From contig CADCVH010000032.1 in assembly GCA_902806085.1 (NCBI GenBank), positions 1 to 42,953 of the forward strand: a DNA stretch of 42,953 bases. The letters run 5' to 3'. This document shows, in pieces, positions 40,245 to 42,953 of the stretch (within the stretch, counting starts at the first letter, position 1; each line of letters begins with the position of its first letter). Source of the stretch: an uncultured Rubrobacteraceae bacterium. GTDB lineage: Bacteria > Actinomycetota > Rubrobacteria > Rubrobacterales > Rubrobacteraceae. Made by a program: the position numbers and the translations under genes. A model generated the notes under the pieces. It saw nothing but the letters and a program-made list of their open reading frames with translations. It did no database searches and was not told where the DNA came from.

Positions 40245-40454
40245 CTAGGCGCCATCCTCCAGGACGAAGGTAACCGCCAGGTTCACCTTGTACCCGGTGA
40301 TGTTGCCGTCCTGAATCAGGACGTTTTGGTCCTTGATCCAGGCCCCCTCGACACCGCGAAGGGTCGACGTGGCGCGACTAATGGCTTGCTCGATGGCGTC
40401 CTCGAAACTCGTCTGCGAGGTCGCGCTCAACTCGGTTACGCGTGCTACGGACAC
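40245..40454 (-). CDS. Dodecin (flavin storage / sequestration protein)
   Basis: This 69-residue dodecin has the family pattern V-A-R-V-T-E-L-S-A-T-S, F-E-D-A-I-E-Q-A-I, A-x-x-T-L-R-G-V-E-G-A-W39-I and Y-K-V-N-L-A-V-T-F. The Trp is the residue that stacks on bound flavin. Twelve subunits form a hollow sphere that binds FMN/FAD or lumichrome and limits flavin photochemistry. The GTG start at 40454 has AAAGGAG 5 bases upstream; any longer reading is not supported. It is monocistronic with its own terminator. Confidence 0.95.
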   Translation of the reverse strand: MSVARVTELSATSQTSFEDAIEQAISRATSTLRGVEGAWIKDQNVLIQDGNITGYKVNLAVTFVLEDGA

Positions 40455-40663
40455 GAATGCTCCTTTCGCCTGTTTTCTCTCGTTCCCTGGGCAGGTCTCT
40501 ACCCGTTGGCACGCAAAGCAAAACGCACCAGGCGAACCCTTGAAAAGCGGCAGACAGGGCCCCCGGCTCTCGTTTTGCCCCCCGAAAGCGAGGGCGGAAG
40601 GCATTCCCGTGCCGGCGTCAGCCGGCGTGGTCCGCGAAGGCTCGATGCTTCCGCGGACCGCCC

Positions 40664-41404
40664 CTACAGTTCCTTTACGAGCACGGGATCGGTGGTGGGT
40701 TTCTCCGACCCGCCGGCGGGTTCGACGGTGACCGCGATGGCGTCGGCCCCGCCGAGGGGCTTGGTGATGGCGGTCGCGGCCATGTTGCCGGATGGGTCCA
40801 GCAGCCCGCTAGGCTCCGGCACGTCGTTGTTTATGACCCAGACCTGCCCCGTGCGGTCGTCGGGGATTGATGGCATGTCCTCGACCACGAGGATGGCCCG
40901 GTCGTTCTTGAGCGCCGTGACCTCCGCGCGGGCGCCCTGCTCGGCCCAGGCGCCGCCCAGCTCTATCTCCCGGGTCTCCTGGGTTTCTTCCGCGGTGCGC
41001 GCCTCCTCGACCTGGCTCCGAAGGCTCTGCACGTCTCCCTGGAGCAGGACGTTCCAGGACAAGAGGCCGACCACCAGCAGGGCCGCCGCCCCGAGGGCGA
41101 CGTTGCGGAGGCCGCCGAGCCGGCCGAGCCAGGAGAGGGCCGGGCTACGGCGGGCGGCGCGGGGCCGGGCGGCCTCGGAGGCCACCACGCTCATCACCCG
41201 GCGGCGCAGTTCGGTGGGCGGGTCGTGCTCGGGCGGGGCCAGCGCGAGCAGGCCGGCCACCCCCATGAGGTCTTCGATCTCCGCCTGCCGCTCCGGGCGC
41301 GAGGCCAGGTACGTATCCACGGCGGCCCGCTCGTCCTCCGGCAACGCGCCGAGAACGTAGGCGTCCTTGAGTTCGTGGAAAGTCTTGTCGTCCATCGGGC
41401 TCAT
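40664..41404 (-). CDS. Anti-sigma factor (RskA-like)
   Basis: This 246-residue protein has an N-terminal cytoplasmic anti-sigma domain (E-L-K-D-A-Y-V-L-G-A-L-P-E-D-E-R), one membrane helix (about 101-121), and an outer domain of the RskA type with G-Q-V-W-V-I, and the ending V-T-V-E-P-A-G-G-S near the C-terminus. No zinc H-C-C motif is visible, as in other RskA proteins. It should hold the sigma factor at 41401 inactive until an outside signal triggers its proteolysis. ATG 41404 overlaps the sigma stop (ATGA). Confidence 0.9.
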   Translation of the reverse strand: MSPMDDKTFHELKDAYVLGALPEDERAAVDTYLASRPERQAEIEDLMGVAGLLALAPPEHDPPTELRRRVMSVVASEAARPRAARRSPALSWLGRLGGLRNVALGAAALLVVGLLSWNVLLQGDVQSLRSQVEEARTAEETQETREIELGGAWAEQGARAEVTALKNDRAILVVEDMPSIPDDRTGQVWVINNDVPEPSGLLDPSGNMAATAITKPLGGADAIAVTVEPAGGSEKPTTDPVLVKEL

Positions 41405-41988
41405 CTAGGCACCGCCACGTCCTTCTGGTCGAAGTAGTCCCTTATCTTTTTGAGCCCAAGCCGCATCCTGCCTTTGACCGTGCCCAGCGGCAGGCCGAGG
41501 AGCTCGGAGATCTCGACGTGCGTGTAACCCGAAAAGTACGCGAGCTCAAGGATCTTGAGCTGCTCCGACGGGAGCGTGTTCAGCGCCTCCCTTACCTGGT
41601 CGCGCTGCGAGTTGCGCCAGGTCTCCGCGAAGGCCTCGCTCGGTTGCGACCTCGGCGCGGACTGCTTGACGCGGTCCTGGGTCCTGCGGCGGCTCGCCAG
41701 CGAGCGCAACTGGTCTATCCCGCGGTTGTGCACGATGGAGAGGACCCACGTCCGCACGCTCCCGCGCTCGGACCTGTAACCGGCCGCCGAGCGCCACACC
41801 TTCAAGAAAGCGTCCTGGGTGAGGTCTTCGGCGGCCTGCCTCTCGCCCATCATCCGGTAGGAGAGGGAGTACGCCGCCCGGCAGTGGCGGTCGTAGAGCG
41901 CGGCGAACGCATCCGCGTCGCCGGCCTCCATAAGAGACATGAGGTCCTCGTCCGCGAGGATCAGGTACTTTTTGCCTGCGTCCGCCAT
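41401..41988 (-). CDS. ECF RNA polymerase sigma factor (SigK-like)
   Basis: This 195-residue group-4 sigma factor has region 2 with A-A-E-D-L-T-Q-D-A-F-L-K-V-W and V-R-T-W-V-L-S-I-V-H-N-R-G-I-D-Q-L-R, and region 4 with L-P-S-E-Q-L-K-I-L-E-L-A-Y-F-S-G-Y-T-H and I-S-E-L-L-G-L-P-L-G-T-V-K-G-R-M-R. It recruits core polymerase to a small stress regulon and is coupled to its anti-sigma factor by an ATGA overlap. TAGAAT lies 6 bases before the ATG, suggesting a leaderless mRNA. It is divergent from two Tat-exported ferritin-like genes that may be in its regulon. Confidence 0.93.
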   Translation of the reverse strand: MADAGKKYLILADEDLMSLMEAGDADAFAALYDRHCRAAYSLSYRMMGERQAAEDLTQDAFLKVWRSAAGYRSERGSVRTWVLSIVHNRGIDQLRSLASRRRTQDRVKQSAPRSQPSEAFAETWRNSQRDQVREALNTLPSEQLKILELAYFSGYTHVEISELLGLPLGTVKGRMRLGLKKIRDYFDQKDVAVPR

Positions 41989-42000
41989 ACCCTGATTCTA
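41986..42000 (-). promoter_or_regulatory. -10 element placed for a leaderless sigma factor mRNA
   Basis: On the minus strand TAGAAT (42000-41995) is followed by 6 bases and the ATG at 41988. No Shine-Dalgarno sequence intervenes. Confidence 0.5.
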
Positions 42001-42058
42001 CGGCAGTGCCTGGAGGCCGGATCACGGGCGATCCGCTTCAGGCCGCGCCCACCGCTAT

Positions 42059-42106
42059 ATGTTGAGAAATGTTGAGGAAAACTTACGGGGCGATTAAAAT
42101 GTTGTG
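42059..42106 (+). promoter_or_regulatory. Promoter with phased ATGTTG boxes upstream of the ferritin-like genes
   Basis: TTGAGG (42072-42077) and TAAAAT (42095-42100) are separated by exactly 17 bases, a good housekeeping-type promoter; transcription would start near 42107, leaving a leader of about 97 bases. ATGTTGAG occurs at 42059 and 42069 and ATGTTGTG at 42099. The spacings of 10 and 30 bases put the boxes on one face of the helix, overlapping the -35 and -10. Confidence 0.65.
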
Positions 42107-42203
42107 ATCCGCCGTCCGGGGGCTTCCGTAACATGTGGTTGTAAGCAGGCAATCTGTTGTAGGAAGCGGATGCTGTAAAGGGCAACGAGGAAGGGTAGGG
42201 TAG

Positions 42204-42857
42204 ATGAGTGGAGTAGAGAGCCGCGGCCTGATCGCGTTCGATCAGGAGACATCGCGGCGAAGCTTCTTGAAGACCGCGGCGTGGGCCGGTGCCGCGCTGT
42301 CGGCGGCGGGGATCGGTGGCTTTGGTGTCGCCGTCAAGCAGGCCCACGCCACGCACGAGGGCTATGTGCCCCTGGGCGACGCGGGGATCCTGCAGTTCGC
42401 GTACCAACTGGAGCAGCTTGAGGGCATCTTCTACGACGAGGGCCTCAACGCCGGCTTGTTCGCGGACGCGTTCGCCGATCAGGTCGCGGCGATCCGGGAC
42501 CACGAGTTCGCCCACGCCGAGGCCATAGCGGCTACGCTCGGCGACCTTGGCGCGGAGGTGCCCGCGGTGCCCGAGTTCACCTACCCGGACGGTGTGTTCA
42601 CCGACGTGGTGGCGTTCCTGGAGCTGGCGGCGACGTTCGAGCCGGTCGGGATCGGGGCTTATCAGTCGGCGGCCGTGGCGCTTGAGAGCAAGGACATCCT
42701 CGCGGCGGCCATCTCGATCCACAACGCCGAGTGCCAGCACCGGTGCGCGATCAACATAATGAACCTGGTCGTCCCGCCGAACAACATCGCCTTCGAGGAG
42801 GCGCTGCCGTTGGCCGCCGTTCAGGACGCCGTGGCGCCCTTCGGGATCACGGGTTAA
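42204..42857 (+). CDS. Tat-exported ferritin-like domain protein
   Basis: This 217-residue protein has a twin-arginine signal S-R-R-S-F-L-K (17-23) followed by a hydrophobic Ala/Gly-rich stretch to about residue 45. The mature part is a four-helix ferritin-like domain with E/H-rich helices: Q-L-E-Q-L-E-G-I-F-Y near 70-79, R-D-H-E-F-A-H-A-E near 98-106, and N-A-E-C-Q-H near 175-180, which supply E-x-x-H-type di-iron ligands. Such exported proteins are found in desiccation-tolerant bacteria; their role is unclear. GAGGAAGGGTAGGG precedes the ATG. It is followed by a similarly exported partial gene 16 bases on. Confidence 0.88.
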   Translation: MSGVESRGLIAFDQETSRRSFLKTAAWAGAALSAAGIGGFGVAVKQAHATHEGYVPLGDAGILQFAYQLEQLEGIFYDEGLNAGLFADAFADQVAAIRDHEFAHAEAIAATLGDLGAEVPAVPEFTYPDGVFTDVVAFLELAATFEPVGIGAYQSAAVALESKDILAAAISIHNAECQHRCAINIMNLVVPPNNIAFEEALPLAAVQDAVAPFGITG

Positions 42858-42873
42858 GGGAGGAAGGCTAAAG

Positions 42874-42953
42874 ATGCACAAGCACAAAGTAGACGTGCCG
42901 GGCGCGGAGGAGTTCGCGTCGCGGCCCAAGAAGAGCCGGAGGGACTTCTTCAA
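42874..42953 (+). CDS. Second Tat-exported protein, partial (5' end only)
   Basis: Only the first 26 codons are present. The start at 42874 has AGGAAGG 6-8 bases upstream, 16 bases after the previous stop, so it is in the same operon. The sequence contains K-K-S-R-R-D-F-F, a twin-arginine motif. By position and leader it is probably a second ferritin-like protein, but the mature domain lies beyond the window. Confidence 0.7.
   Translation, partial: MHKHKVDVPGAEEFASRPKKSRRDFF

Follow-up and report, generated by a model that had tools for sequence, protein, structure and literature searches.

The targets mpt70 and mpt83 of the SigK/RskA system of Mycobacterium tuberculosis are fasciclin-type. 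This system is among the closest described parallels to the locus analysed here, which lies in a stretch of 42,953 nucleotides from an uncultured Rubrobacteraceae bacterium (assembly GCA_902806085.1, contig CADCVH010000032.1; hereafter the window). There, the genes for an extracytoplasmic function (ECF) sigma factor and an RskA-type anti-sigma factor are divergent from tandem genes for ferritin-like proteins with twin-arginine translocation (Tat) signals. In PMC7509140, mpt70 is described as a SigK-regulated reporter, and two conserved cysteines are reported for 94% of ECF18 and 56% of ECF19 sigma factors. For Thermus thermophilus, the name SigE is taken from PMC4153023, and the Thermus sigma factor gene discussed below, matched by position, is presumably SigE. 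In Corynebacterium glutamicum, a sigE-cseE-tatB operon has been tied to surface stress (PMC10012870).

For the PF13668 (Ferritin_2) family, to which the exported proteins belong, RvFeMP-1 is described as a tardigrade dinuclear-metal metabolite phosphatase. Phosphatase activity is reported for RvFeMP-1, RvFeMP-2 and, in vitro, DRB0118, and metal-site mutants of RvFeMP-1, including those of Asp135, lose activity (PMC11616004). According to the same source, D. radiodurans without DRB0118 has lower desiccation survival; PCC13-62 has a secretory signal, is induced by drying and is without molecular characterization; and the regulation of the family is given as unknown. DRB0118 is further reported to be required for resistance to desiccation but not to radiation, with TTP0166, TTP0169 and TTP0170 as its Thermus homologues (PMC1274311). 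The accessible text of two biocrust papers (PMC11519504 and PMC7901476) contains nothing on the family beyond a reference.

We propose, as on balance the probable reading, that the locus belongs to a regulon for envelope stress, probably drying, in which metal-loaded PCC13-62-type proteins would be produced together with the Tat machine that exports them.

The divergent locus and its conservation

Contig C32, one of 133 in a 4.41-Mb genome, makes up the window in full. The genes of the divergent unit are as follows.

40664..41404, minus strand: RskA-type membrane anti-sigma factor gene (246 amino acids; RskA_C 73.1 bits, cut-off 29.4)
41401..41988, minus strand: ECF sigma factor gene (195 amino acids; Pfam Sigma70_r2 66.5 bits, Sigma70_r4_2 52 bits)
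42204..42857, plus strand: fer1 (217 amino acids; Tat signal SRRSFLK; PF13668 (Ferritin_2) 107 bits, cut-off 24.7)
42874..42953, plus strand: 5' part of fer2, a Ferritin_2 gene with Tat signal SRRDFF, truncated by the contig end and in tandem in relatives

The sigma and anti-sigma factor genes overlap by 4 nucleotides (nt), and the sigma factor gene and fer1 diverge across a spacer of 215 base pairs (bp). The anti-sigma factor also passes model NF052375 (150 bits, cut-off 100) and has a single hydrophobic stretch at about residues 100 to 122, as read off the sequence; its RskA_N score is 19.1 bits against a Pfam cut-off of 27. The twin-arginine signal of fer1 was recognized by TIGR01409 (21.9 bits, above the cut-off of 16.7), and the Pfam TAT_signal model gave 17.2 bits, under its cut-off of 22.7. 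The start of fer2 follows the end of fer1 by 16 bp. Since the window is all of contig C32, fer2 is incomplete there, with only 26 codons present.

Orthologues of fer1 were found at 28 loci in 26 genomes of the family, at 58 to 86% identity, including Rubrobacter marinus and many Rubrobacter and Rubrobacteraceae metagenome-assembled genomes. Two loci (G028 and G023) stop at fer1, which leaves 26 that are testable. The sigma factor gene was divergent from fer1 in 24 of these, a count that includes one locus (G002) whose contig ends within the sigma factor gene, and the divergently placed sigma factors were 68 to 87% identical. The other two, the second fer1 copy on contig C44 and a second pair in R. 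marinus, had no sigma factor gene in 12 and 16 kb of sequence. Because the divergent layout is repeated in so many of the testable family loci, it is not attributable to chance. An earlier note, made from the letters of the window, had described an ECF sigma/RskA pair divergent from tandem genes for Tat-exported ferritin-like proteins, and the domains, coordinates and conservation of the unit bear this description out.

The rest of fer2 was located on contig C23 (L076), the end of which is identical to the window end over 90 bases (42864-42953). The protein encoded there is above the Ferritin_2 cut-off, at 83.4 bits; in it an Ala-Ser repeat separates signal and domain, unlike in the fer2 proteins of other genera. 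Contig C44 (L040), which carries the second fer1 copy (84 to 85% identical), shares a 127-base overlap with this end of C23. As C32 and C44 both run into the fer2 start of C23, the assembly forks there. The C44 copy has neither a sigma factor gene nor the promoter motif described below, so a duplication or a mixture of strains is possible.

The promoter motif and linkage beyond the locus

The shared spacer holds two candidate promoters of the same form, one facing each side.

41999..42024, minus strand: candidate sigma promoter of the sigma/anti-sigma operon (autoregulation), TGATCC-N16-CGTA, found in 23/23 spacers
42105..42130, plus strand: candidate sigma promoter of fer1-fer2, TGATCC-N16-CGTA with the CGTA block at 42127-42130, found in 22/23 spacers

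These counts were made with the pattern TGATCY-N16/17-CGTA over 23 comparable spacers, which remained from 25 after exclusion of L043 (spacer lost, sigma hit beginning at residue 41) and L074 (a paralogous pair). The near-identical loci L058 and L071 are both in the counts, and L071 is not in the matrix described below. The sole miss on the fer1 side (L056) reads TGACTC. Both spacer sites were the only matches in the 42,953 bases, where shuffles expect 0.26. As two matches were nevertheless reached in 5 of 100 window shuffles, the strength of the motif derives from its conservation and position rather than from the window alone. A matrix was built from 40 spacer sites, all with spacing 16; when applied to 1982 background windows of 300 bases, it scored at least 10 in 5 and at least 14 in 0.

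Judged from its sequence, the unit has the form of an autoregulated ECF divergon, in which one bipartite candidate promoter motif precedes both the sigma factor and its putative target, and the sigma factor presumably uses this TGATCC-N16-CGTA motif. The view of the earlier note that the ferritin-like genes are under the linked sigma factor is thereby made probable by an ECF-type motif towards both sides, with promoter use read from the motif. Ferritin-like genes with only a housekeeping promoter and unlinked from the sigma factor elsewhere, the contrary picture named in that note, were not what was found. On contig C40 (G000; L074 7425-9190), a second Ferritin_2 gene is divergent from a second sigma factor gene (63% identical). 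In this paralogous divergon copy, TGATCC-N16-CGTA faces the ferritin-like gene only.

The motif also occurs at genes distant from the sigma factor, none of which contributed to the matrix. A matrix site of at least 16.7 was present at 8 of the 13 scanned unlinked Ferritin_2 genes; the genes of G019 (C54 and C86), G004 (C456), G051 and G055 were outside the scan. At a ninth unlinked gene (G000 C40), the site is 239 nt ahead of the predicted start, beyond the scanned stretch. No good site was seen before the Ferritin_2 gene of contig C44, the genes of the second R. marinus pair, the gene of G026 (7.7) or that of C23, which lies at a contig end.

Upstream of tatA, a site of at least 10 was found 34 to 68 nt before the match in 16 of 19 family genomes and in none of the 9 non-family genomes; the G008 locus, with 2 bases upstream, and L207 were excluded from scoring. 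tatC follows tatA in all 19 family genomes, and TatA and TatC of G006 were confirmed by curated models. Of 7 additional tatA-like loci, none with a tatC in the sequence examined, one had a site (G021, 14.6). The shared motif at tatAC and at unlinked Ferritin_2 genes goes beyond the earlier note and suggests that the same sigma switch may drive the Tat export machine.

A substrate-binding lipoprotein gene (L158 1088-2332 and orthologues; SBP_bac_8, NF008633/YnjB-like subfamily) has a motif of at least 10 in 8 of 17 family loci and is a candidate member of the regulon. The window genome gave 34 matches to TGATCY-N16/17-CGTA, and eight relatives gave 141 to the TGATCC form; part of these matches was examined in context, the later ones selected mostly for spacing 16 and a purine after TGATCC. 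Many lie inside coding frames, and the idea that all matches make up the full regulon was rejected. Genes for a DUF192 lipoprotein, DUF4383, a molybdopterin oxidoreductase, a lipid desaturase and others have the motif in two genomes each and are not claimed as members. A reversed-pattern control (0 to 3 hits) was left unused, since the CTAG that arises on reversal makes it biased.

A single contig scan yielded 73 named Ferritin_2 loci, 52 of them outside Rubrobacteraceae. In 13 of the 52, a sigma hit (E<1e-25) lay in the stretch examined, and 8 of these 13 also had an RskA-like gene. A background of 149 other loci, drawn from Rubrobacteraceae and other actinobacteria and with a Ferritin_2 gene in a few of them, gave 0 sigma hits, the five hits all being in Ferritin_2 loci. 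ECF/RskA pairs were linked to Ferritin_2 genes in Solirubrobacterales, Ktedonobacteria, a planctomycete and Thermus, with the divergent form of the arrangement in Aquisphaera giovannonii. RskA_C was detected in 5/5 scanned anti-sigma factors (L272, L285, L300, Thermus HB8 and Aquisphaera). In Solirubrobacterales, the five loci at which both genes occur (L272, L277, L282, L285 and L287) each contained a matrix hit of at least 18.3 somewhere in the stretch.

In T. thermophilus HB8 and HB27, the sigma and anti-sigma factor genes stand beside ferritin-like genes. Scanned with the Rubrobacter matrix, the two strains gave no convincing site (highest scores, 7.5 in HB8 and 6.6 in HB27), and the presence of the exact Rubrobacter promoter in Thermus was rejected. 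Both HB8 and HB27 have CAWMC-N17-CGTA upstream of one ferritin-like gene as well as of sigE and of the divergent DUF5602 gene, a post hoc fit because the pattern was chosen after the sequence had been seen. In HB27 (L305 4267-6659, pTT27), HD-GYP and peroxiredoxin-like genes lie among the ferritin-like genes with the Thermus motif before them; both are absent from the HB8 stretch.

The exported proteins, readings of the regulon and flanking features

Residues E70, E73, E101, H104, E146, E176 and H179 were invariant in 20/20 aligned Ferritin_2 proteins, a set that did not include C23 fer2. By profile alignment and the ligand list of PMC11616004, the fer1 ligands match E51, E90, H93, E132 and D162 of RvFeMP-1. 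At the Asp135 position of RvFeMP-1, fer1 has Gly149, and E73 is an extra helix-1 Glu; a Gly at this position and an added helix-1 Glu are both given for DRB0118 in the same source. RvFeMP-1 also came out closest among solved structures when sequence profiles were compared (E 1.4e-23); its sequence identity to fer1 is about 20%. The structural model of fer1 (predicted local distance difference test, 78.9; signal region poor) matched RvFeMP-1 best, with a Foldseek E of 2.6e-5 (8w9k), a Z of 22.1 and a root mean square deviation of 1.7 over 156 residues; Z was 17.6 for a mini-bacterioferritin and about 16 to 17 for Dps/Bfr. No classical ferritin, bacterioferritin or Dps Pfam model was matched by fer1 at E up to 0.01; of the Pfam families, only PF13668 was.

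In the proposed regulon, a SigK/RskA-like switch would operate, with the anti-sigma factor retaining the sigma factor at the membrane. Release of the sigma factor, probably via proteolysis, would follow an extracytoplasmic signal, for which drying or accompanying damage is the likeliest candidate, and the freed sigma factor would transcribe its own operon, the Tat-signal Ferritin_2 genes and more Tat translocase. The Ferritin_2 proteins would fold and load their dinuclear metal in the cytoplasm; once exported by Tat, they would work beyond the membrane as hydrolases (phosphatases) that depend on metal, like DRB0118 and RvFeMP-1, and would aid survival of drying. Drying is put forward as the probable signal from the biology of the PF13668 family, not from data of the locus itself.

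An extension of this proposal is offered more tentatively, as a possibility short of an even chance. It holds that the unit represents an ancient response to desiccation shared across phyla: a single ECF sigma factor would make metal-loaded PCC13-62-type enzymes and, in Rubrobacteraceae, their Tat translocase, matching export capacity to load; Ferritin_2 proteins would then form an extra-membrane layer of damage repair or clean-up in drying cells. Proteins of PF13668 are known from plants, fungi, tardigrades and bacteria that tolerate drying. The locus ties the family to Tat export. It also points to a candidate regulator and a defined promoter sequence, and the small regulon that it outlines is testable in cultured Rubrobacter. 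If the proposal is true, the Tat machine and a Tat cargo are under one stress sigma factor.

Several observations weigh against the drying regulon. Among the 52 loci outside the family, 39 have no close sigma factor gene, and for this reason the linkage of ECF/RskA to Ferritin_2 is recurrent rather than general. Two intact-looking fer1 copies (C44 and the second R. marinus pair) are without sigma factor and motif, the C40 sigma paralogue (63%) could use the same motif, and tatAC of G009, G021 and G019 are without it. Most tatA sites read CGTATAAT, which is compatible also with a housekeeping -10; a housekeeping promoter may therefore overlap, and basal tatA expression is likely. The reported phosphatase activities are 1 to 2 orders under those of known metabolite phosphatases (PMC11616004). 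C23 fer2 has diverged: its helix-4 His is replaced by Asn, and its helix-3 ligand region is altered.

It is less likely, though not far-fetched, that the sigma factor is a general envelope-stress regulator with protein export as its main target, the Ferritin_2 proteins being some of many Tat cargoes and the signal something other than drying. The tatAC sites are among the best conserved unlinked sites, the lipoprotein site recurs in 8/17 family loci, further exported or membrane proteins have a site in two genomes each, and the C. glutamicum operon is tied to surface stress (PMC10012870). However, Ferritin_2 is the only family that adjoins the sigma unit in several phyla, and within Rubrobacteraceae the site is found at most unlinked Ferritin_2 paralogues.

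A little less likely again is that the proteins bind metal and are not enzymes in vivo, serving outside the cytoplasm in a structural or protective role during desiccation, as is assumed for PCC13-62 of plants. The secretory signal and drying induction of PCC13-62 and the low published phosphatase activities (PMC11616004), together with the lost ligand-region residues of C23 fer2, are consistent with such a role. Against it stand the invariance of all ligands in the 20 aligned proteins, with C23 fer2 not among them, and the loss of activity in Asp135 mutants of RvFeMP-1 (PMC11616004).

Finally, the surface iron or oxidative defence suggested in the earlier note, in which the exported proteins would store or oxidize iron or remove peroxide and the sigma factor would answer iron or oxidative stress, appears less probable still: a four-helix bundle of the ferritin type whose dinuclear carboxylate/His site is conserved, the similarity to bacterioferritin and Dps (Z about 16-17) and the peroxiredoxin-like gene in T. 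thermophilus HB27 favor it, but PF13668 is the only family matched, the nearest relatives with tested activity are Zn/Mg-type phosphatases, RvFeMP-1 ranks clearly over ferritins in the fold comparison (Z 22.1 versus 17.6), and DRB0118 has its role in desiccation. The drying regulon with co-regulated Tat export is the reading that we prefer.

Downstream of the anti-sigma factor gene lies one further gene.

40245..40454, minus strand: dodecin gene (PF07311 77.6 bits; start, GTG after AAGGAG)

The dodecin gene adjoins the anti-sigma factor gene in 19 of 24 divergon loci, and 2 of the 5 misses (L044 and L054) end at a contig edge. It has no TGATCC-N16-CGTA motif of its own, as the window holds only two matches, and is possibly an operon member with the anti-sigma factor gene. 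A stable hairpin RNA was predicted at 40590-40667 on the anti-sigma strand, directly 3' of the anti-sigma factor gene and ahead of dodecin (-45.8 kcal/mol, z -3.5; equally stable in 0/200 shuffles); a clear T run is absent.

Comparison with known systems

Like the Rubrobacteraceae unit, SigK/RskA of M. tuberculosis combines an ECF sigma factor, an RskA_C membrane anti-sigma factor and exported targets; the targets in Rubrobacteraceae, however, are Ferritin_2 proteins. The window sigma factor scores under the cut-off of the SigK model NF007228 (147.8 versus 226 bits) and is without the SigK cysteine pair, its sole Cys being residue 36. On account of this score and the missing pair, the unit was not assigned to SigK proper.

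T. thermophilus SigE/anti-SigE (sigE-TTHB212 operon, pTT27) likewise places a sigma factor and an RskA_C anti-sigma factor beside Ferritin_2 genes. It differs in that the ferritin-like gene of HB8 is downstream of the anti-sigma factor gene and not divergent from the sigma factor gene, in its -35 element, and in the zf-HC2 domain of its anti-sigma factor. The sigE-cseE-tatB operon of C. glutamicum is similar in that an ECF sigma factor, an anti-sigma factor and a gene of the Tat translocase are controlled together. There, tatB is within the sigma operon, whereas tatAC of Rubrobacteraceae is unlinked and joined by the promoter motif only; no Ferritin_2 partner is mentioned in the accessible text of PMC10012870.

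With PCC13-62, DRB0118 and RvFeMP-1, fer1 shares the Pfam family, the metal ligands and the fold. It is without an IgG-like domain, as in 'clade 2', and has the DRB0118-like Gly and helix-1 Glu. In contrast to those proteins, fer1 and fer2 have a Tat signal, form a tandem pair and are linked to a sigma factor gene.

In the open literature, by title and start of abstract, no report joining an ECF sigma factor to PF13668 or tatAC in Rubrobacter was found, a result that does not establish absence from print. ECF/RskA pairs with exported targets are already known from SigK and Thermus SigE, and an ECF operon with tatB is known from C. glutamicum. As far as the open literature shows, what is new is the proposed joint regulon of PCC13-62-type proteins and tatAC, together with its candidate promoter.

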